Source: Flavobacterium sp.
Lineage (GTDB): Bacteria > Bacteroidota > Bacteroidia > Flavobacteriales > Flavobacteriaceae
Length of the DNA stretch: 64,000 bases
Assembly (NCBI RefSeq): GCF_027533505.1
Contig: NZ_JAPZUB010000003.1
Coordinates: 1 to 64,000, forward strand
Direction: 5' to 3'
The notes under the pieces were generated by a model. The model made no database searches. It was given only the letters and a program-made list of their open reading frames with translations, and had not been told where the DNA came from. The translations under genes and the position numbers were made by a program. Shown piece after piece: positions 5,262 to 21,424 of the stretch. Every line of letters starts with the position of its first letter. Position 1 is the first letter of the stretch.

Positions 5262-8200
5262 TTGAAAACAAACAGCCGGAATAAATCATTATTACGAATA
5301 CTTTGTTTTCTTTTTGTGTTTTTTGCCTTTTCAACACAGGCCCAAACAACAGAAGAGGAAGACGACGAAAAAGCGAGAGATACCATTAAAGGATACAACA
5401 CCGGAGCCATTAAATTAAATGACCCGAAAAGTGTTGTAGAAGCCTATACCTATGACCCTACCATAGATCGATACGTTTTGACCAAAACCTTTGAAGGGTT
5501 TAACATCAATTATCCGATGTTTTTAACCCCTAAAGAGTACGATGCCTTGGTATTACGGGAATCGATGCGGGCTTATTTTCAAAAGAAGTCCAATGCTGCT
5601 GAAGGAAAAGGAACAGAACAAGACAAGAAAGACTTGCTCCCGCGGTATTACGTAAATTCCAGCTTTTTTGAAACCCTTTTTGGAAGTAACACCATCGATA
5701 TCAAGCCCACTGGATCGGTAGAAGTTGATCTAGGGGTGCGTCATACCAAGCAAGATAACCCCGCTTTTTCACCGCGGAACCGTGCCACAACTACATTCGA
5801 TTTCAATCAGCGCATCAGTATGAGTTTGATGGGAAAAGTAGGAACGCGTTTAAATGTAAATGTCAATTACGACACCCAATCTACTTTTAATTTCCAGAAT
5901 TTAATCAAGTTGGAATACACGCCAACCGAAGACGATATCATTCAGAAGATTGAAGTCGGTAACGTTAGTATGCCTTTAAACAATACGCTAATTCGTGGAG
6001 CGCAGAGTTTGTTTGGGGTTCGTGCCCAACTGCAATTTGGAAGAACAACCGTAACAGGGGTGTTTTCAGAGCAAAAGTCGCAAACCCGAACCGTAACCTC
6101 ACAAGGAGGCGGGACGATTCAGAATTTTGAACTTTTCGCACAAGAATACGATAACGATCGTCACTTCTTCTTATCGCAATATTTCAAAAATCGCTACGAT
6201 TTTGCTTTACGAAATTATCCCTTTATTGACAGCCGGGTACAAATTACCCGTATTGAAGTTTGGGTAACCAACCGTCAAAACCGAATCAACACTACCAACA
6301 ACAACCAACGAAACGTAATCGCTTTACAAGATTTAGGGGAGTCTCGATTGACCGACACGTATAGCAATACGCCACTGAATGATAACCAAGTAGTGGCCGT
6401 CGATCCGATTGAAATCACCAATGGATTTTTTCTAACCCCAATTGATAGTCCTTCCGACAACTCCAACAACCGGTATGATCCCGCTTTAATTGGAACAACC
6501 GGATTGCTTAATCAAGGTATTCGTGAAATTTTTACTGCCGGCAATGGATTCAACAACGTAAATCCAGTAAACGAAGGGACCGATTATGCCAAGTTGGAAA
6601 ATGCACGAAAATTAAATCCCTCCGAGTATACTTTTCACCCCCAATTGGGATATATCTCTTTGCAACAACGCTTGGCCAATGACGAAGTTTTAGCCGTTGC
6701 TTTCCAGTATACCGTGGGTGGTCAAGTATATCAAGTAGGGGAGTTTGGAACCGATGGCGTTGAAGCAACGCAAGTTGATACCGGAGGAATTCCCGCGACA
6801 CAATCGTTGATCGTAAAAATGTTGAAAAGTACGCTAACGTTTGTCGATAAGCCGATTTGGGGCTTGATGATGAAAAATATTTATCAAATTCCCGGGGGGT
6901 TCCAGTTGCAAAAAGAGGATTTTAAATTCAATATTCTTTACACAGATCCTTCGCCTTTAAATTATATCGTAGAGGCTAGCCCCACAAGTCCACTGCCCAA
7001 CGACGTTCGCGAAACGCCTTTACTTCGCGTTTTCTCTATGGACCAATTGAATTTTGCCAACGACCCACAAACAGGCGGGGATGGTTTTTTTGATTTTGTT
7101 CCCGGACTTACCATTGACCAGCAAAACGGCCGAATTATTTTTACTAAAATCGAACCTTTTGGACGTTATTTATTTGAAAAATTACGAACTGCACCTGGGT
7201 CATCGGAAAACTATCTAGGCGACCCAACCTCTTTGGCAGATTTTAACCCCAACCAAGCGAAATACGTATTCCGAACTTTATATACAAGTACACAAGCCGC
7301 AGCGTTGCAAGACAGTGAAAAGAATAAATTTCAATTGCGCGGTCGATTTAAATCTTCGGGAGGAGAAGGGATTCCCATCGGAGCGTTCAACGTTCCGCAA
7401 GGATCGGTTATCGTTACGGCGGGAGGAAGACGTTTGGTTGAAGGGGTCGATTTTACCGTAAATTACCAAGCGGGACGTGTTCAAATTTTAGATCCCTCCC
7501 TACAAGCATCCAATACACCTATTGAAGTTTCGGTTGAGAACAATTCTGTCTTTGGCCAGCAAACACGTCGCTTTATGGGGATTAATGTTGAGCATAAATT
7601 TTCACCCAAAGCCTTAGTGGGCGCCACGTTTTTGAAAATGACGGAGCGTCCGTTCACCCAAAAATCCAATTACGGTCAGGAATCTGTTAACAACAGTATG
7701 TTTGGGTTGAACACGAGTTTGTCTTCGGAAGTTCCATTCTTAACTCGTTTAGTGAATAAATTGCCCAATGTGGACACGGATGTTCCTTCAAACGTGTCGT
7801 TCCGTGGGGAAGTTGCTTTCTTAAAGCCCGATGCGCCTATTGGTGACCGGTTTAATGGTGAATCGACTTTGTACGTAGACGATTTTGAAGGATCACAAAC
7901 CAATATTGATTTACGTTCCCCATTGTCGTGGTTTATAGCCTCTACACCAGAACGCCCTGCAACCGGAAATGTGGATTATCCTGATTTTAATGGAACACAA
8001 AATTCGATAGATTACGGATTTAAACGCGCCAAAATTGCATGGTATACCATTGATCCTGTATTTTACACGCAACGTCCTTCGGGTGTTTCCCAAGATGATT
8101 TATCGCTCAACAGCACGCGTCGTATTTTCAGTTCAGAGCTATTTCCGCAAACGGTTATCGCACAAGGACAATCGCAAGTGGTGAATACCTTGGATTTAAC

Positions 8201-11200
8201 CTATTTTCCTCAAGAACGCGGTCCCTATAATTTCAATCCAGCAGCGCAAGCAGATGGAACATTGCCTAATCCCGATACCAATTATGGGGGAATCATGCGA
8301 GCGTTGAATTCAACCAATTTTGAACAAACCAATGTCGAATATATCCAGTTTTGGATGATGGATCCCTATTTTGATCCGACCAATCCTGGGGCGGCTTCCG
8401 ATCCTTCTAATGTGGGTCAGATTTATTTCAACCTCGGTGAGATTTCTGAAGATATCCTCAAAGACGGGCGTAAGTTTTATGAAAATGGTTTAGGGCCTGG
8501 GCAAATTACCACCAGTAATTATTGGGGAAATATTCCGGCCTCGCAATCTTTGATTTATGCTTTTGATACTGATACGGCCAACCGTAATGTGCAAGACGTA
8601 GGATTGGATGGGCTTAGCGATAATGAAGAGGCGGCCAAGTTCCCTGGATTTGCCTCATTCCCCGATCCGGCGGCAGACAATTACAATTTTTATTTAAATG
8701 CCAATGGAGGTGTTTTGGATCGCTATAAAAATTACAATAACGTTCAAGCCAACTCTCCCGTAGATGTTACCGACACCAATCGAGGTTCGACCACTATTCC
8801 TGATGTAGAAGATGTCAATCGGGATAATACCATGAATACGATCAATGCGTATTATGAGTATAAAATTAATATCAGTCCAAGTGCGCTTTCAAATGTTGGA
8901 GCCAACTTTATTACAGATATTCGTGAAACACAGGTAACTGCTGCCAACGGAAATACAGTTCAAGCCCGTTGGATTCAGTTTAAAATACCCGTTACTGCAC
9001 CTGCCAATACCATTGGAAGTATTTCTGATTTCCGTTCTATTCGTTTCATGCGAATTTTCATGACCAAATTTAACCAACCAGTTACCATTCGTTTTGGGAC
9101 ATTGGATTTGGTTCGAGGCGAATGGCGACGTTTTGAAAACACTCTTGATCCTGTCGATACAGATGTCACTGATGATGGAACCAATTTTGAGGTTCAAGCC
9201 TTAAACGTTCAAGAAAACGGTTCGCGTAATCCTATTAATTACGTTACTCCTCCGGGTGTTCAGCTAGAACAGTTGATGCAAAACAACACCTTGATTCCTC
9301 AAAATGAACAATCGTTGGCATTACGCGCTAGTGGCTTAGGTTTGGAGCCTGGCGATGCTCGTGGGGTGTTTAAAAACGTCAGTGTCGACATGCGACAGTT
9401 CAAAAAAATCAAAATGTTCTTGCACGCTGAAGCGCTTCCTGACGAGCCAAGTTCAATTGAAGATAATGAGCTTGTGGGTTTCATTCGCTTTGGAAACGAT
9501 GCGTCAGAAAACTTTTATCAGATAGAACTTCCGTTAAAAAAATCGCAATTCAACGTTAATAATCCCGATGCGGTATGGCCCGAAGCCAACCAAATTGACG
9601 TATCGCTGAAGTTGTTGACCCAATTAAAAGTGTTGGCCTTGAGTCATATCTATACTTCGCCTGGAGAAATTTATTTTAAAAATGAAGATGAACTCGACAA
9701 TTCCTTGGTTGGCAAAGTCAATAAGGCCCGTTTGGGTATTCGAGGGAATCCTAATTTTGGTTTGATTCGGGTTTTAATGGTGGGAATTAAAAACAATACC
9801 CACATCCTGAACACTGTTGAACACCCACTCAATCCGAGAAGGATAAAGGGAGAGGCGTGGTTCAATGAGTTGCGTATTGCCGATATGGACAATAAAGGCG
9901 GTATGGCTGCTGTAGCCAATTTGGATGCGAATTTGGCCGACTTTGCAAATATTTCAGCGACTGGACGCATGAGCACCATTGGTTTTGGTTCGATTGATCA
10001 AGGTCCTAATGAACGTAGTCGTGAGGAGATATTGCAGTACAATATTGTGACCAATATGAGTTTGGGGAAATTGTTGCCCAAGAAATGGAACATGAATGTG
10101 CCTTTTAATTATTCTGTTGGGGAAGAGATTATTACACCTAAATACGATCCATTCTTCCAAGATATCGAGTTGCAACAATTGATTGACAACACTCAAGATG
10201 AGGCGCAAAAACGCAATTTCCGCAACCGAGCGATTGACTATACCAAGCGTAAAAGCATCAATTTTATTGGGGTTAAAAAAGACCGTGGAGAAAAACAAAA
10301 ACCACGTTTTTATGACATCGAAAACGTGACGGTTTCCTACTCGTACAATCAGGTGGATCGCAACAATTATGAGCTGGAAAACTTCCAAGATCAACAAGTA
10401 AATACCGCAGTGGATTATACGTTTGCCTTTCAAAACAAACCCGTGGAGCCTTTCAAAAAAGTAAAGGCTTTCCAAAAAAGCAGTTATTGGAAATTGTTGA
10501 GTGATTTTAACTTCAACTTTTTACCTTCTAATATTTCTTTTAGTACCAACATTAACCGTCAGTTGAATCGTCAGCAATTCCGCTTGGTTGATGTAGAAGG
10601 AGTAGGGTTGCAAACCTTATTTCAAAGAAATTATTTGTTCAATTACCAGTACGGATTCAATTACAATTTGACCAAGTCATTAAAGTTGAACTTTAATGCG
10701 ACGAGCAATAACTTGGTCCGTAATTTTATGGATGAGAATAATGTACCCGACAATACGTATACGCTTTGGACGGACTTTTGGAATCCGGGATTGCCGAATA
10801 CCCACAATCAACAGTTGACTATCAATTACGAAGTGCCGTTGAATAAAATTCCGTTCCTGGCCTTTATCAAACCAACGTATACATACAACGGTACATTCAC
10901 CTGGCAACGTTCTTCCATCGCATTATCTTCGTACACCGATGCCAATGGAGAGGTGTTTAATTTAGGGAATACCATTCAAAATTCTGGATCACACAAGTTG
11001 AATACGGCTTTCAATATGGATGCCTTGTATAAATACATTGGGTTAACCAAGACCAAAAAGAATACCAAGACCACGCAAACAGGTCCCCCAAAACCAGGGC
11101 AAAAAATTACAAACACCGCTGTAGCTCCACAATCGGAGCGCAGTCCTTTTGTAGAGGGGTTAATCGGTATTTTAACCAGTGTAAAAAATATTCAAATCAA

Positions 11201-12491
11201 TTACACCGAAAATCAAAGTACAGCCTTACCAGGATACACGCCGGGTCTCGGATTCTTTGGTTCGGCCAAGCCCTCTATGGCATTTGTGTTTGGGTTGCAA
11301 GACGATGTGCGTTTTGAAGCGGCCAAACGCGGCTGGTTGACCAATTTCCAGGATTTTAACCAAAATTATACTGAGGTTATCAACCGTACGTTGGACATGA
11401 CGGCTAATATTGATTTGTTCCCCGATTTTAAAATCGATTTGGCGGCCAATCGCACTTATGCCACGAATTATACAGAGCAATATGATGTAAGTCCCGATGG
11501 GACCTACAATTCAAGGTCGCCTTACAATACAGGGAACTTTGCGATTTCGACCAACATGATTACCACCTCGTTTATGCCTAGTGACGAGTTTGGTTCGGAA
11601 GCATTTAATCGATTCCGCGAAAACCGTTTTGTAATTGCGCATCGTTTGGCCGAAGATTATTATGGGAATACTACCTATCCGCTCGATGCAGAGGGGTACC
11701 CACAAGGATTTGGGAAAAACAGTCAGGATGTCTTATTGCCCGCTTTCTTGGCGGCCTATACAGGGCGTGATGTCAATAAAGTGTCAACGGGAATCTTTAG
11801 AGACATTCCCATTCCGGGTTGGAATATTAAGTACAACGGATTAATGCGGTATAAGTTTTTCAAAGATCGCTTCAAACGTTTCTCGATTCAGCACAACTAC
11901 AAAGCATCCTATACTATCAATGCCTTCCGTTCAAATTTAGACTATGTAGAAGGTGCCATAAACCCTGCCAATAACAATTTCTTCCAGCAAACGATTGTAG
12001 GAAATGTCAACTTGGTGGAACAATTTAGTCCGCTTTTCCGCATTGATTTTGAAACAAAAAGCTCCTTTAAGTTGTTGCTTGAAATGAAAAAAGACCGCGC
12101 CTTATCGTTCAGTTTTGACAACAATTTATTGACCGAGCAACAAGGTGTTGAGTATATTGTTGGAACAGGATTCCGTTTCAAAGACGTGATTATCTCTTCG
12201 CGTTTGGCCGATAATCCCACCGGAGTGATTAAGAGTGATATAAATGTGAAAATTGACTTCTCTTACCGTAACAACAAAACCATTGTGCGGTATTTAGATT
12301 ATAATAACAACCAGTTGGGAGGCGGTCAAGACTTATGGTCAGCCCGAGTTACTGCCGATTATTCGTTCAGTAAAAATTTAACGGCCATTTTCTTTTATGA
12401 TCATTCATTCTCTCAAGCCGTTATTTCAACTTCATTCCCGATAACCAATATTCGAACTGGATTTACGTTGCGTTATAACTTCGGAAATTAA
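5262..12491 (+). CDS. sprA: T9SS translocon / gliding motility protein SprA
   Basis: SprA is the very large outer-membrane beta-barrel that forms the protein-conducting channel of the type IX secretion system and is needed for gliding and surface protein export. At 2409 residues the length fits the family. The start is TTG, three bases after ruvA; the first residues form a signal peptide (RILCFLFVFFAFSTQAQ, cut near residue 28), and no nearby ATG gives one. The sequence is rich in alternating beta-strand segments and ends in an aromatic barrel strand (GFTLRYNFGN). The order ruvA-sprA-gcvH-vanZ-like matches F. johnsoniae. No frameshift or repeat expansion was seen. Many antisense ORFs in the track are shadows of this gene. 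Confidence 0.95.
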   Translation: MKTNSRNKSLLRILCFLFVFFAFSTQAQTTEEEDDEKARDTIKGYNTGAIKLNDPKSVVEAYTYDPTIDRYVLTKTFEGFNINYPMFLTPKEYDALVLRESMRAYFQKKSNAAEGKGTEQDKKDLLPRYYVNSSFFETLFGSNTIDIKPTGSVEVDLGVRHTKQDNPAFSPRNRATTTFDFNQRISMSLMGKVGTRLNVNVNYDTQSTFNFQNLIKLEYTPTEDDIIQKIEVGNVSMPLNNTLIRGAQSLFGVRAQLQFGRTTVTGVFSEQKSQTRTVTSQGGGTIQNFELFAQEYDNDRHFFLSQYFKNRYDFALRNYPFIDSRVQITRIEVWVTNRQNRINTTNNNQRNVIALQDLGESRLTDTYSNTPLNDNQVVAVDPIEITNGFFLTPIDSPSDNSNNRYDPALIGTTGLLNQGIREIFTAGNGFNNVNPVNEGTDYAKLENARKLNPSEYTFHPQLGYISLQQRLANDEVLAVAFQYTVGGQVYQVGEFGTDGVEATQVDTGGIPATQSLIVKMLKSTLTFVDKPIWGLMMKNIYQIPGGFQLQKEDFKFNILYTDPSPLNYIVEASPTSPLPNDVRETPLLRVFSMDQLNFANDPQTGGDGFFDFVPGLTIDQQNGRIIFTKIEPFGRYLFEKLRTAPGSSENYLGDPTSLADFNPNQAKYVFRTLYTSTQAAALQDSEKNKFQLRGRFKSSGGEGIPIGAFNVPQGSVIVTAGGRRLVEGVDFTVNYQAGRVQILDPSLQASNTPIEVSVENNSVFGQQTRRFMGINVEHKFSPKALVGATFLKMTERPFTQKSNYGQESVNNSMFGLNTSLSSEVPFLTRLVNKLPNVDTDVPSNVSFRGEVAFLKPDAPIGDRFNGESTLYVDDFEGSQTNIDLRSPLSWFIASTPERPATGNVDYPDFNGTQNSIDYGFKRAKIAWYTIDPVFYTQRPSGVSQDDLSLNSTRRIFSSELFPQTVIAQGQSQVVNTLDLTYFPQERGPYNFNPAAQADGTLPNPDTNYGGIMRALNSTNFEQTNVEYIQFWMMDPYFDPTNPGAASDPSNVGQIYFNLGEISEDILKDGRKFYENGLGPGQITTSNYWGNIPASQSLIYAFDTDTANRNVQDVGLDGLSDNEEAAKFPGFASFPDPAADNYNFYLNANGGVLDRYKNYNNVQANSPVDVTDTNRGSTTIPDVEDVNRDNTMNTINAYYEYKINISPSALSNVGANFITDIRETQVTAANGNTVQARWIQFKIPVTAPANTIGSISDFRSIRFMRIFMTKFNQPVTIRFGTLDLVRGEWRRFENTLDPVDTDVTDDGTNFEVQALNVQENGSRNPINYVTPPGVQLEQLMQNNTLIPQNEQSLALRASGLGLEPGDARGVFKNVSVDMRQFKKIKMFLHAEALPDEPSSIEDNELVGFIRFGNDASENFYQIELPLKKSQFNVNNPDAVWPEANQIDVSLKLLTQLKVLALSHIYTSPGEIYFKNEDELDNSLVGKVNKARLGIRGNPNFGLIRVLMVGIKNNTHILNTVEHPLNPRRIKGEAWFNELRIADMDNKGGMAAVANLDANLADFANISATGRMSTIGFGSIDQGPNERSREEILQYNIVTNMSLGKLLPKKWNMNVPFNYSVGEEIITPKYDPFFQDIELQQLIDNTQDEAQKRNFRNRAIDYTKRKSINFIGVKKDRGEKQKPRFYDIENVTVSYSYNQVDRNNYELENFQDQQVNTAVDYTFAFQNKPVEPFKKVKAFQKSSYWKLLSDFNFNFLPSNISFSTNINRQLNRQQFRLVDVEGVGLQTLFQRNYLFNYQYGFNYNLTKSLKLNFNATSNNLVRNFMDENNVPDNTYTLWTDFWNPGLPNTHNQQLTINYEVPLNKIPFLAFIKPTYTYNGTFTWQRSSIALSSYTDANGEVFNLGNTIQNSGSHKLNTAFNMDALYKYIGLTKTKKNTKTTQTGPPKPGQKITNTAVAPQSERSPFVEGLIGILTSVKNIQINYTENQSTALPGYTPGLGFFGSAKPSMAFVFGLQDDVRFEAAKRGWLTNFQDFNQNYTEVINRTLDMTANIDLFPDFKIDLAANRTYATNYTEQYDVSPDGTYNSRSPYNTGNFAISTNMITTSFMPSDEFGSEAFNRFRENRFVIAHRLAEDYYGNTTYPLDAEGYPQGFGKNSQDVLLPAFLAAYTGRDVNKVSTGIFRDIPIPGWNIKYNGLMRYKFFKDRFKRFSIQHNYKASYTINAFRSNLDYVEGAINPANNNFFQQTIVGNVNLVEQFSPLFRIDFETKSSFKLLLEMKKDRALSFSFDNNLLTEQQGVEYIVGTGFRFKDVIISSRLADNPTGVIKSDINVKIDFSYRNNKTIVRYLDYNNNQLGGGQDLWSARVTADYSFSKNLTAIFFYDHSFSQAVISTSFPITNIRTGFTLRYNFGN

Positions 12492-16281: not shown

Positions 16282-17208
16282 TTGACATTTGTAAACAAAG
16301 TATCGTTGGACACGCATTCGACATCGTTGCACCCTTTAAAATTGTTTCGAGATTTTAAAGAAATCACTAAAGCGTGCTTAGCCGTGAGTGTCGTGTTTTC
16401 TTCCATTGCAGGTTATTTACTAGGCATCAGTGAGGCCCATCCGTTCAATTGGATGACTTTGTTGGTGTTAGCGGTAGGAGGGTATTGTATGGTTGGTGCT
16501 TCCAATGCGTTTAATCAAGTCATTGAAAAAGATTTAGATGCCTTGATGGACCGCACCAAAAACCGTCCCGTTGCATCAGGTCGTATGGCACCCAACACGG
16601 CCTTATTTGTAGCGAGCTCCCTTACCATCACGGGTTTGGTTTTGTTGTATATCATTAATCCTAAGTCGGCTATGTTTGGCGCGGTGTCCATTTTTTTATA
16701 CACCAGTGTCTATACCCCCTTAAAAGCCGTTACTCCCTTGGCCGTATTTGTTGGTGCATTTCCAGGTGCAATTCCTTTTATGTTGGGATGGGTTGCTGCT
16801 ACAAACCATTTTGGTATTGAAGCGGGGACCTTATTTTTAATTCAGTTTTTTTGGCAATTTCCCCACTTTTGGGCAATTGGTTGGTTCTTATTTGAAGATT
16901 ACAAGAAGGCCGGTTTCTTTATGTTGCCCACAGGGCAGCGGGATAACCGCACTGCCTTGCAAATTGTGTTGTATACATTTTGGTTGATTGTAGCTTCGGT
17001 ATTGCCTGCATTTGGGTATACGGGGCAGCTTTTTATTAGTCCCATTGCAACGGTTTTGGTCGTGTTGTTGGGGTTGTGGATGCTGTTTTATACGTTTCAA
17101 TTATACCGTTTGCGCACCCCAAAAGCAGCTCGTGTACTCATGTTGGTGAGTGTTGGGTATATTACATTATTACAAATCATTTACATCACGGATAAATTTC
17201 TACGTTAA
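16282..17208 (+). CDS. cyoE: Heme O synthase (protoheme IX farnesyltransferase)
   Basis: Inner-membrane UbiA-family prenyltransferase that adds a farnesyl group to heme B, giving heme O for the terminal oxidase. The 308-residue protein has the aspartate-rich motif NQVIEKDLDALMDRTKNRP near 75-93 and about nine membrane helices. TTG at 16282 is taken as start because it follows the promoter closely and gives a normal cytosolic N-terminus. The first subunit III gene begins two bases after the stop, so this is the head of an oxidase operon. The homologue is also called ctaB. Confidence 0.94.
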   Translation: MTFVNKVSLDTHSTSLHPLKLFRDFKEITKACLAVSVVFSSIAGYLLGISEAHPFNWMTLLVLAVGGYCMVGASNAFNQVIEKDLDALMDRTKNRPVASGRMAPNTALFVASSLTITGLVLLYIINPKSAMFGAVSIFLYTSVYTPLKAVTPLAVFVGAFPGAIPFMLGWVAATNHFGIEAGTLFLIQFFWQFPHFWAIGWFLFEDYKKAGFFMLPTGQRDNRTALQIVLYTFWLIVASVLPAFGYTGQLFISPIATVLVVLLGLWMLFYTFQLYRLRTPKAARVLMLVSVGYITLLQIIYITDKFLR

Positions 17209-17209
17209 T

Positions 17210-17785
17210 ATGACAGTACAAGAAGAACAAGCCCGCTCAGCGCGCTCCTATAAATTGTTGTTGATCTTCGGAATGATCAGCATCGTTATGCTTTTTGCCG
17301 GATTAACAAGCGCCATGGTGGTTAGTAAATCCCGCCCGGATTGGTTGACGAATTATCAAATTCCACAGGCCTTTACCATCAGCACAGTGCTCATTTTGTT
17401 GTGTAGTTTGACATTTCACTTGGCAAAACGCACCATTAAGCAAGACCAGCGTAGTAAAACTTCGCTATTTTTAGGGTTGACATTGGTTTTAGGACTGGGA
17501 TTTGTTTACTTCCAGTTTGAAGGGTTTGACGAGCTGTTTGCCGACCGTCTTTTTCCTACAGGGAAGTCAGGATCGGTCACGATTGCGTTCCTTTATATCT
17601 TGGTTTACGTACACTTAGCGCACCTGTTGGGAGGCATCTTATCATTGTTGCTAATTATTTATAATCATTTTAAACAAAAGTACACTGCTGCTCAATATCT
17701 TGGAATTGAGCTGGGTGCGATATACTGGCACTTTTTGGATGCTTTGTGGCTCTATTTATTTTTGTTTTTGTATTTCTTTAAATAA
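17210..17785 (+). CDS. Cytochrome c oxidase subunit III (short form)
   Basis: A heme-copper oxidase subunit III homologue of 191 residues with five membrane helices, ending in the typical YWHFLDALWLYLFLFLYF. The track begins 20 codons earlier inside cyoE; ATG at 17210, two bases after the cyoE stop, gives MTVQEEQARS and a normal hydrophilic N-terminus. It is the first of two tandem subunit III genes. Flavobacterial oxidases commonly keep this pair; the separate role of each is not known to me. Confidence 0.88.
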   Translation: MTVQEEQARSARSYKLLLIFGMISIVMLFAGLTSAMVVSKSRPDWLTNYQIPQAFTISTVLILLCSLTFHLAKRTIKQDQRSKTSLFLGLTLVLGLGFVYFQFEGFDELFADRLFPTGKSGSVTIAFLYILVYVHLAHLLGGILSLLLIIYNHFKQKYTAAQYLGIELGAIYWHFLDALWLYLFLFLYFFK

Positions 17786-17828: not shown

Positions 17829-18857
17829 ATGGGATCGACAGTTACTACAAACAATGGTGTAGCTAATGTTTGGAATGGCGGAGGCGCCGAGCCGTTAGGA
17901 GCGAGTTATGGAAAGATGATGATGTGGTTTTTCATCCTTTCCGATGCATTAACCTTCTCAGGATTCGTTGCGGCTTACGGTTTTTCAAGATTTAAATTTA
18001 TCGAAACTTGGCCAATTGCGGATGAGGTGTTCACCCACTTTCCGTTTATGCACGGTGTATCTATGCCGATGTATTATGTGGCCTTCATGACTTTCGTACT
18101 TATTTTTTCCTCTGTTACCATGGTTTTGGCTGTAGATGCTGGACACCAAATGAAACAAGGTAAAGTTGCCATTTACATGTTTTTAACGATTATCGGAGGT
18201 TTAATCTTCGTAGGGTCACAAGCTTGGGAATGGAAAAACTTCATCAAAGGAGAATACGGTGCTATTGAAACCAAAGGAGGAAGTATTTTACAGTTTGTGA
18301 ATGCTGAAGGAAAGCAAATTAAGTTAGCTGATTTTGCAGCTACTTTACCAGAAGAACGTGAGCAGCTAACGCGTAGTCGTGCTACCTGGTTTATGTCAGA
18401 ACCTTCTTTACCTACGTATTCTGTTAATGAAGTAATTGAAGGCTTCAAAAAGAATCCCGATATTTTGATCCGTACAGAAGTCATCTATTCGGAGGAAACG
18501 GCTAAGCATTCTATCGGAGCTCACCCTTCTTTAAACAAGATTAAACATAAAACTATTTTGACGCGTGAAGAGTCGTTAAGACGAATTAATGAGGCGAAAA
18601 TAGTTATTGAAGGGGCTAACTTACACCGCAATGAATACGGAAGTAAGTTATTTGCTGATTTCTTCTTCTTTATTACAGGTTTCCACGGTTTCCACGTATT
18701 TTCAGGAGTTGTCATCAACATCATTATTTTTATCAATGTGTTGTTGGGTACCTACGAGCGTAGAAGAACTTATGAAATGGTTGAAAAAGTTGGTTTATAC
18801 TGGCACTTTGTAGACTTAGTTTGGGTATTCGTATTTACCTTCTTCTATTTAGTATAA
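17829..18857 (+). CDS. Cytochrome c oxidase subunit III (long form with soluble insert)
   Basis: A 342-residue subunit III homologue. The membrane helices before about residue 135 and after about residue 275 align with the family (DALTFSGFVAAYG, FFFFITGFHGFHVFSGV, YWHFVDLVWVFVFTFFYLV). Between them lies a hydrophilic segment of about 130 residues rich in charged amino acids, absent from the short paralog just upstream. It probably faces one aqueous side of the membrane and may be a flavobacterial feature. The gene belongs to the oxidase operon and is followed 17 bases later by subunit IV. Confidence 0.9.
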   Translation: MGSTVTTNNGVANVWNGGGAEPLGASYGKMMMWFFILSDALTFSGFVAAYGFSRFKFIETWPIADEVFTHFPFMHGVSMPMYYVAFMTFVLIFSSVTMVLAVDAGHQMKQGKVAIYMFLTIIGGLIFVGSQAWEWKNFIKGEYGAIETKGGSILQFVNAEGKQIKLADFAATLPEEREQLTRSRATWFMSEPSLPTYSVNEVIEGFKKNPDILIRTEVIYSEETAKHSIGAHPSLNKIKHKTILTREESLRRINEAKIVIEGANLHRNEYGSKLFADFFFFITGFHGFHVFSGVVINIIIFINVLLGTYERRRTYEMVEKVGLYWHFVDLVWVFVFTFFYLV

Positions 18858-18874: not shown

Positions 18875-19225
18875 ATGGCACACGAGCATACATCAAATAC
18901 AAAACGCATCTGGGTTGTTTTCGGTATTCTTTCCATTATTACTATTGTCGAAGTATGGTTAGGGATTGAAAAGCCAAAATCATTATTCCACTCGAACTTT
19001 TTATCCATGAATTTACTGAACTGGATTTTCATCATCCTAACGTTAGTGAAGGCATACTACATTGTGTGGGCTTTCATGCACATGGAAGGTGAAACAAAAG
19101 CTTTGCGAAGAGCCGTAGTTTGGACAGGTATTTTCTTAATTCTCTATTTAACATTCATTCTTCTAACTGAGGGATTCTATGTCTTCACCGTGTTTAGAGA
19201 TGCCACGATTAAATGGAATTTTTAA
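18875..19225 (+). CDS. Cytochrome c oxidase subunit IV family protein
   Basis: A small 116-residue inner-membrane protein with three helices, matching the prokaryotic cytochrome C oxidase subunit IV family (WVVFGILSIITIVEVWLG, LVKAYYIVWAFMHMEGETKALR). These subunits support assembly or stability of the oxidase and have no redox centre. It closes the structural-subunit part of the operon and is followed by a strong terminator. Confidence 0.88.
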   Translation: MAHEHTSNTKRIWVVFGILSIITIVEVWLGIEKPKSLFHSNFLSMNLLNWIFIILTLVKAYYIVWAFMHMEGETKALRRAVVWTGIFLILYLTFILLTEGFYVFTVFRDATIKWNF

Positions 19226-19299: not shown

Positions 19300-19956
19300 A
19301 TGAAAAAGAATTTAGTGCTCTTCGTCCTTTTTGTTTTGCCCATCGTGGCTTACTTGTTCTTTGCCTCTGGCGTCAACAGCTTTGCGAAGTTACCTACTAT
19401 TACCCCTACTATTCCTGACCTTCAAGAATGGAAAACCACAGAAGGGAAATCAGTGACCTTAAACAATAAAATTACCATCTTAGGATTTATCGGTTATGAT
19501 GTCGAGCACCACAAAGGCGGTTTTTTTAATTTGTATGAAAAAATTTATGCCCGCAACAAAGAGTTTAAGGACTTCCAAATGGTGATGGTTTTTCCCGAAG
19601 GGACCGAGGCTGAAGTGACCAAGTTACAAACCAGTTTAAAGAAGTTAGGGCCTCAGGAAAATTGGTGGTTTGTTTTTGGCTCCCCCGAATCGATAAAAAG
19701 CTACTACAGCAAATTACAATTACAGGGCAGTCTCAATGAAAAATTAGGTACTCCCAACGTGTATATTGTAGATAAGAAGCGCAATTTGAGAGGACGAAAA
19801 GGGAAAAATAAAAAAGGGGAAGAGGAATACCAAGAGGGGTATAATACCTTTAAAGTATCCGACCTTTATAATAACATGATCGATGATGTGAAAGTCATTC
19901 TCGCAGAATACCGTTTAGCTCTTAAAAAGAATAACAAAGCCAATCGAAAAATCTAG
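19300..19956 (+). CDS. SCO-like thioredoxin-fold protein lacking the metal-binding cysteines
   Basis: A 218-residue protein with an N-terminal signal or anchor helix (LVLFVLFVLPIVAYLFF). I align it with the SCO protein encoded immediately downstream: NWWFVFGSPESI here matches NWHFLTGDKATI there, and YIVDKKRNLRGRKG matches ALIDKKGNIRCRRD. Where SCO has CPSIC, this protein has GYDVEHHKGG, so the two cysteines are missing; the conserved SCO histidine is also absent. It is therefore probably a cysteine-less paralog with a role in oxidase assembly that does not involve copper thiol chemistry. Function is unproven. SCO starts two bases after this gene ends. Confidence 0.8.
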   Translation: MKKNLVLFVLFVLPIVAYLFFASGVNSFAKLPTITPTIPDLQEWKTTEGKSVTLNNKITILGFIGYDVEHHKGGFFNLYEKIYARNKEFKDFQMVMVFPEGTEAEVTKLQTSLKKLGPQENWWFVFGSPESIKSYYSKLQLQGSLNEKLGTPNVYIVDKKRNLRGRKGKNKKGEEEYQEGYNTFKVSDLYNNMIDDVKVILAEYRLALKKNNKANRKI

Positions 19957-19957
19957 T

Positions 19958-20650
19958 ATGAAAAACAAATCGTATATCGGTATATCGTTTATTATCTTGA
20001 TTTTCGGGATAATTTTTATACCCAAAATCGTTGATCGCATTAAAAATGGACAAACCGTTCAAAATGACCGTATGAGTTTGTCCAATGAAATCAAAGATGA
20101 AGCAGCCAAAAAGACCTTGGTTGTGATGGGGCAAGTACCCCAATTTTCACTTACTAACCAAGACAATAAAAATATTACTCAGGATTCATACAAAGGAAAA
20201 GTCTACGTTTTAGAATTCTTTTTCGCTAGTTGTCCAAGTATTTGCCCAGTGATGAATAAAAATATGTTGAAATTACAACAGCAATTTGGTAAGAATCCCG
20301 ATTTTGCCATCGCTTCGATAACCATAGATCCTGAAAAAGATACTGCAGAAGTATTGAAAGAACATGCACAATCATTAGGGGTTACCATGAAAAATTGGCA
20401 TTTTCTAACGGGAGATAAAGCAACTATTTTTGATTTGTCCAATAAAGGGTTTAACATTTATGCTGGGGAATCCAAAGACAAAGTCAATGGCGGTTTTGAG
20501 CATTCTGGTTTGTTTGCATTGATCGATAAAAAAGGAAATATACGCTGCCGTCGCGATGCTCAAGGAAATCCGATTTTGTATTACGACGGTTTGGAAGCCC
20601 CTGGCATTAAAGCCATCAGTGAAGACATACAACGCTTATTAAATGAATAA
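19958..20650 (+). CDS. SCO1/SenC/PrrC family copper chaperone
   Basis: Membrane-anchored thioredoxin-fold protein that delivers copper to the CuA site of cytochrome c oxidase subunit II or reduces its cysteines. The 230-residue protein has an N-terminal anchor helix (residues 6-24), the CxxxC motif CPSIC (C92, C96) and the ligand histidine in FEHSGLF (H182). Length and motifs are normal. It is flanked by a cysteine-less paralog upstream and a DUF420 gene three bases downstream, consistent with an oxidase assembly module. Confidence 0.93.
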   Translation: MKNKSYIGISFIILIFGIIFIPKIVDRIKNGQTVQNDRMSLSNEIKDEAAKKTLVVMGQVPQFSLTNQDNKNITQDSYKGKVYVLEFFFASCPSICPVMNKNMLKLQQQFGKNPDFAIASITIDPEKDTAEVLKEHAQSLGVTMKNWHFLTGDKATIFDLSNKGFNIYAGESKDKVNGGFEHSGLFALIDKKGNIRCRRDAQGNPILYYDGLEAPGIKAISEDIQRLLNE

Positions 20651-20652
20651 TT

Positions 20653-21198
20653 ATGGACGTTAAACCTACATTAGAAACTAAATTTAAAACACCGATTATC
20701 GTTGTTTCTATTCTTATCCCGATTGTCGTCGCGGTATTGTTTTCTTTCAAGTTGAAGGACTTTGGAATCAATGTAGAACCGCTCTCTTTTTTACCGCCTA
20801 TTTATGCAGGAATCAATGCGGTTACAGCAGTATTGTTGGTATGGGCGGTGCTTGCAATAAAAAATGGAAATCGCAAAACACATGAGCGTTTGATGACTGC
20901 TGCGATTGCTTGCTCTGTCGTGTTTTTGGTGATGTATGTTGCCTATCATCTTACTTCCGAATCGACTAAGTTTGGCGGTGAAGGAGACATTCGCTATGTT
21001 TACTTCTTTATCTTGATAAGTCATATCGTTTTGTCGGTAGCGATCATTCCTTTGGTTTTATTTACCTATGTTCGCGCCTTATCGCAACAGTTTGACCGCC
21101 ACCGTAAATTGGCCAAAATCACTTTTCCGTTGTGGTTGTATGTAGCCGTGACGGGTGTTATTGTATATGTAATGATTGCACCGTATTATGCGCATTAA
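20653..21198 (+). CDS. DUF420 family membrane protein
   Basis: A 181-residue integral membrane protein with about five helices, typical of DUF420 (NGNRKTHERLMTAAI near 72-86, HRKLAKITFPLWLYVAVTGVIVY near 150-172). Members sit beside cytochrome oxidase and SCO genes in many bacteria, and a role in oxidase biogenesis has been proposed in related CtaM-like proteins. Conserved histidines in HERLM and near the C-terminus could bind metal or heme, which is inference. It overlaps the following small gene by 11 bases. Confidence 0.88.
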   Translation: MDVKPTLETKFKTPIIVVSILIPIVVAVLFSFKLKDFGINVEPLSFLPPIYAGINAVTAVLLVWAVLAIKNGNRKTHERLMTAAIACSVVFLVMYVAYHLTSESTKFGGEGDIRYVYFFILISHIVLSVAIIPLVLFTYVRALSQQFDRHRKLAKITFPLWLYVAVTGVIVYVMIAPYYAH

Positions 21199-21424
21199 TA
21201 ATCGTTTGTTTTTCGCACTTTTTCTGCTCCTTTCGACAACTCCGTCAGCCCAAGGACAGTGTGCCATGTGTCGAGCGTCTTTAGAAAGTTCAGGAAATGT
21301 GGTCAAAGCCGAAGCAGTCAATGACGGAATCGTTTACCTTATGGTGTTTCCGTATATTCTTGTGGCTGTAGTGGGCTATGTGGTATACAGTATGTTTCGT
21401 CGGAAAAAGGTCAAGACGACTTAA
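21188..21424 (+). CDS. Small CxxC single-span membrane protein
   Basis: A 78-residue protein with a signal peptide (NRLFFALFLLLSTTPSAQGQ), then CAMC (C25, C28), a short linker, and one membrane helix near 46-68 followed by a basic tail (RRKKVKTT). I do not recognise a named family. ATG 21188 is chosen over the upstream TTG in the track because it gives the standard signal peptide; it overlaps the end of the DUF420 gene. Position at the end of the SCO-DUF420 module suggests a role in copper or heme handling for the oxidase. It converges on the DUF4403 gene, and the two stop codons share one TTAA. Confidence 0.75.
   Translation: MRINNRLFFALFLLLSTTPSAQGQCAMCRASLESSGNVVKAEAVNDGIVYLMVFPYILVAVVGYVVYSMFRRKKVKTT

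Follow-up and report, generated by a model that had tools for sequence, protein, structure and literature searches.

A cysteine-less SCO homologue encoded directly upstream of an intact SCO in the aa3 oxidase operon of Flavobacteriaceae

SCO proteins, together with PCuAC-type proteins, load the CuA site of COX2, and their copper motif is a CxxxC followed by a distal histidine (PMC9145763). The window analysed here, a stretch of 64,000 nucleotides from a Flavobacterium sp. (assembly GCF_027533505.1, contig NZ_JAPZUB010000003.1, positions 1 to 64,000), encodes in a cytochrome oxidase gene cluster a protein with SCO landmarks and no copper site, immediately followed by an intact SCO. What does such a protein do beside an intact copper chaperone, and from which SCO does it descend? 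The features concerned, all on the forward strand, are the following.

16282-17208 (+): CyoE/CtaB-type heme O synthase (UbiA family)
17150-17785 (+): cytochrome oxidase subunit III-like protein; the ORF start is probably downstream
17829-18857 (+): cytochrome oxidase subunit III, 342 aa, with an insertion
18875-19225 (+): cytochrome oxidase subunit IV (COX4_pro)
19300-19956 (+): Cys-less SCO-homologous protein, 218 aa, ATG start, membrane-anchored, predicted periplasmic
19303-19404 (+): its anchor (helix 2-22) and linker at the N-terminus, together aa 2-35, with the motif NSFxxLPT; the part with the highest conservation
19489-19530 (+): former SCO copper site, aa 64-77, reading IGYDVEHHKGGFFN against ASCPSICPVMNKN in SCO
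19828-19938 (+): its conserved C-terminal tail, aa 177-213, YQEGYNT...DDVKVILAEYRLALKKN
19958-20650 (+): intact SCO copper chaperone, 230 aa
20231-20245 (+): CPSIC (CxxxC, C92/C96) of the intact SCO
20501-20503 (+): copper-ligand histidine (H182) of the intact SCO
20653-21198 (+): DUF420 membrane protein, conserved operon member
21176-21424 (+): 82-aa membrane protein with a CAMC motif, conserved operon member

The product of the ORF at 19300-19956, whose closest named relative (98% identity) is found in Flavobacterium fontis, contains no cysteine. The first of its SCO landmarks reads NWWFVFGSPESI, against NWHFLTGDKATI in the downstream SCO, and the second DKKRNLRGR against DKKGNIRCR, while the CxxxC, the distal His and the Asp of DPxxDT of the SCO all lie opposite other residues in the alignment. 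A single helix (residues 2-22, with KK ahead of it) is predicted to anchor the protein, and no lipobox Cys was found at its N-terminus. The neighbouring SCO retains CPSIC and GGFEHSG and matches Pfam SCO1-SenC with an E-value of 1.7e-29. The preliminary description of this locus had reported the same landmarks, the same loss of CxxxC and copper-ligand His and the intact SCO alongside, all of which are borne out by the sequence and the alignments, but its gap of two bases between the genes is in fact a single base, the stop codon ending at 19956 and the ATG of the SCO starting at 19958.

The cluster runs in the order CyoE, COX3, COX3, COX4, Cys-less gene, SCO, DUF420 and small CxxC membrane protein. 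The last two (20653-21424) recur in the operon in most of the families examined. COX2, with the CuA ligands CNKICGSSHYNM, is present in the genome on another contig, next to a gene that we take to encode an alternative complex III subunit. Two more intact SCO-family proteins of distinct lineages are encoded in the same genome, G000 (C23:8898-9296 and C30:9067-9459; L002 and L003), which therefore has at least three CxxxC SCOs for copper delivery. Elsewhere in the window, a very long ORF of 2409 aa occupies positions 5262-12491 and presumably encodes a protein resembling the secretion and gliding protein SprA.

The Cys-less protein of the window scored above the cut-off of no family in Pfam or NCBIfam and matched no sequence in the PDB, and neither it nor the 51 family members reached the gathering score of PF02630. 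BLASTP against the downstream SCO gave an E-value of 0.002 with 26% identity over 99 aa. Comparing a profile of 51 Cys-less members with one of 47 adjacent SCOs (hhalign) gave an E-value of 2.2e-5 over 149 colinear columns, and the Cys-less family profile retrieves full-length, CxxxC-bearing SCOs from other Flavobacteriales families, so that a chance resemblance is ruled out. In-between forms were also found: in L194, a transitional Cys-less protein occupies the operon slot with an SCO after it, and in L195 such a protein, scoring weakly for AhpC-TSA and SCO1-SenC, is followed by the small CxxC gene and then by an SCO. The profile match, the retrieval of CxxxC SCOs and these transitional sequences together establish a common ancestry of the Cys-less protein and SCO. 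A thioredoxin/Sco-type fold is predicted as well. The AF2 model (pLDDT 85.6) matched thioredoxin-like PDB structures in Foldseek with E-values of 4e-6 to 1e-4, including the Sco entries 6n5u, 1on4 and 4wbj and the Sco-like 3me8, which rules out an unrelated fold; the model of the adjacent SCO matched the same PDB proteins more strongly. Matches of the Cys-less protein to G-proteins and CodY were at chance level.

The loss of the copper site is a property of the whole lineage. Neither CxxC nor CxxxC occurs in the Cys-less proteins of 80 named Flavobacterium loci, which carry 0-2 cysteines each within this genus, and among 25 loci across families the columns of C92 and C96 never hold Cys, while that of H182 holds G, S or A in 21 and His in one. 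CxxxC-bearing proteins, which the preliminary description had set against its own reading when found in this family, are its closest outgroup relatives, and none was found inside the lineage; the CxxxC of these relatives supports an SCO ancestry rather than refuting it. A substitute metal site was also rejected, as the invariant columns of the family contain no Cys, no His and no Met other than M1, and the family does not conserve the HH that the window protein has at positions 70-71. SCO copper chemistry is a task that the Cys-less protein, lacking the CxxxC and the distal His, would be unable to perform. The gene is nevertheless under strong purifying selection, with a dN/dS of about 0.02-0.1, as low as that of the SCO; together with its intactness across the family, this rules out a pseudogene or decay. 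Of the positions in anchor and tail, 34/72 are near-invariant, compared with 26/141 of those in the core (Fisher p 2e-5), and the adjacent SCO displays no comparable shift.

We detected the Cys-less gene in 244 of 251 Flavobacteriaceae genomes, covering 197 of 203 genera. A phylum-wide sample yielded no match to the family outside Flavobacteriaceae, and the wider order a few Cys-less/SCO pairs in other families (G045, G047 and G059). A CxxxC SCO lies immediately downstream, at gaps of a few bases, in all 80 named Flavobacterium loci: 75 were scored by an automatic rule and five by inspection. These five had first been scored as lacking a neighbouring SCO, and a CxxxC ORF was found immediately downstream in each of them, with an upstream in-frame start in four and only an internal start in L167. 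The 25 loci across families likewise have an intact SCO next to the Cys-less gene, L195 with its small gene in between. Wherever checked, the Cys-less gene thus has an SCO downstream. Three public MAGs labelled as Rhizobium sp., Bifidobacterium breve and Lentimicrobium sp. (L123, L149 and L176) carry contigs with Flavobacterium-type oxidase clusters and are probably misnamed or contaminated bins. Genome G746 carries an additional copy of the Cys-less gene (C14:8103-8747) that is broken by a TAA.

The seven Flavobacteriaceae genomes without the Cys-less gene all lack the canonical subunit III (COX3) of the operon as well: searches for it gave no match, or short matches of 29-38% identity that belong to other oxidases, compared with full-length matches of 68-77% in most genomes that have the gene. 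G233 is an in-between case, with subunit III in two pieces at 64-66%. An orphan SCO of the adjacent type persists without the Cys-less gene in G788 and in G040, from another family, where subunit III is absent too. Given that the oxidase operon is missing from all seven negatives and that the orphan SCO persists, the Cys-less gene follows the aa3 oxidase and not SCO as such, and an oxidase-specific role is favoured over that of a general regulator of SCO.

Considering that the protein has retained a conserved anchor and tail, sits next to SCO and occurs only where the oxidase exists, we propose, with a probability that we put just short of even, that it descends from the original SCO of the operon and acts, without copper, as a docking or assembly partner in the maturation of the aa3 oxidase. 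According to this proposal, a second, intact SCO would have taken the slot just downstream, and the original SCO would then have given up its copper site. The Cys-less protein would be tethered by its single N-terminal helix, its Sco/thioredoxin domain would face the periplasm, and anchor and tail may keep the maturation complex of SCO and COX2 (CuA) on the aa3 oxidase while the enzyme is being assembled. There it would position SCO, COX2 or both, possibly by binding them, and so contribute to CuA assembly, while the adjacent SCO would perform the thiol and copper chemistry. A bolder possibility, which we consider rather doubtful, is that one SCO has been divided between two obligate partners: the original would keep the docking functions of anchor and tail, and the neighbour the copper chemistry without the docking parts.

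The dependence on the oxidase would suit a structural subunit equally well. The protein might thus remain permanently in the aa3 oxidase, or in its supercomplex with alternative complex III, as an accessory subunit built on an exapted SCO domain; its strict dependence on the oxidase operon rather than on SCO, its conserved anchor and tail and the position of its gene directly after that of subunit IV all agree with this. The unbroken, tight adjacency to SCO described above is better accounted for by an assembly pair, however, and we regard a permanent subunit as unlikely. PDB chains hold no match to the Cys-less protein and no close relative of subunit III or IV of this oxidase either, so their silence says nothing about subunit status.

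The preliminary description saw in the protein a paralogue of the downstream SCO, acting as a pseudo-chaperone that would scaffold or regulate the insertion of copper. The homology to SCO, visible in profiles and predicted fold, stands, but descent from this particular SCO is probably wrong. The slot that follows COX4, and in most cases precedes DUF420, is occupied by a single intact SCO in several further families of Flavobacteriales (e.g. L183, L186 and L192), whereas Flavobacteriaceae and three other families have the Cys-less/SCO pair there. These single SCOs have retained CxxxC and His, unlike the Cys-less protein, and share with it the N-terminal anchor and linker and the C-terminal tail, the latter being absent from the adjacent SCO. 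A profile of their N-terminal part scored a median of 37 bits on Cys-less proteins against 2 on adjacent SCOs, and one of their tail 20 against 6. Since its anchor and tail are those of single operon SCOs, the Cys-less protein looks like the original SCO of the operon, stripped of its copper site. The full-length tree also groups it with the single SCOs (support 99/98), and the grouping recurs when long-branch rows are removed. This origin is likely rather than proven, because the bootstrap then falls to 28, the core-domain tree has too few columns to settle the placement and the AU test does not reject a union with the adjacent SCOs (p-AU 0.12). The alternative, in which the downstream SCO was duplicated in tandem and one copy, deprived of its copper site, came to regulate or scaffold that SCO as a pseudo-chaperone, would be consistent with this last result, with the adjacency and with the NWxF and DKKxNxR landmarks common to both proteins; set against the anchor and tail, the best trees and the persistence of SCO without the Cys-less gene after oxidase loss, it appears improbable. 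Operon SCOs of some Flavobacteriales families (L191:1569-2321 and L196:1441-2202, both on the reverse strand) carry near their C-terminus an inserted CxxC...CxxC segment (FVCKFCGDSSTKAKIACPSCRKEK) that looks like a small zinc ribbon inside SCO.

Least probable, and in our estimate a long shot, is that the protein has left copper assembly for another oxidase task, such as heme insertion, quality control or redox-stress sensing, as has been proposed for the plant homologue HCC2: invariant columns free of Cys, His and any Met but the start would fit, but the strict tie to SCO and oxidase genes argues against it, and to our knowledge the HCC2 gene has no genetic link of this sort with its intact partner.

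A copper-free docking or assembly partner would make the tasks of SCO besides copper carrying, such as docking, scaffolding and COX2 presentation, testable by gene removal in a tractable organism, such tools being available for the laboratory species Flavobacterium johnsoniae (PMC8552683), and it offers a functional hypothesis for a protein to which neither Pfam nor NCBIfam assigns a family, in a bacterial family of major ecological importance. Compared with the SCO1/SenC family (PF02630; BsSco/YpmQ, ScoI and human SCO1), the Cys-less protein has the same thioredoxin-like fold, as far as the model indicates, and the same single N-terminal anchor, is likewise encoded in an oxidase gene neighbourhood and aligns colinearly at the profile level. 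It differs in lacking CxxxC, the ligand His and DPxxDT, in falling below Pfam detection and in what it conserves, which is the tail and anchor instead of the copper site. Because these defining features fail, it should not be filed as an SCO copper chaperone but rather as a Cys-less, SCO-derived lineage. Our literature search, from which subscription journals were mostly missing, turned up no account of a bacterial lineage of this kind that is linked to an operon, and the parts consulted of a copper survey of Flavobacteriaceae give CxxxC SCOs and make no mention of a Cys-less one (PMC11213822).

Cys-less SCO homologues are already known in plants, and the protein described here would be a copper-free SCO of bacteria, encoded in an operon and present family-wide. 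Arabidopsis HCC2 is an SCO homologue without CxxxC and His that exists alongside an intact SCO and is conserved within its clade (PMC3971200), and in lacking these residues while an intact SCO is present in the same organism it resembles the protein described here. HCC2, however, is a plant mitochondrial protein with five Cys, encoded by an unlinked gene, and COX does not depend on it, whereas the bacterial protein has next to no Cys, is encoded in an operon and occurs together with the oxidase. We assume that the two arose independently, and the kinship of the Cys-less protein with the single SCOs of Flavobacteriales speaks for such a separate origin.
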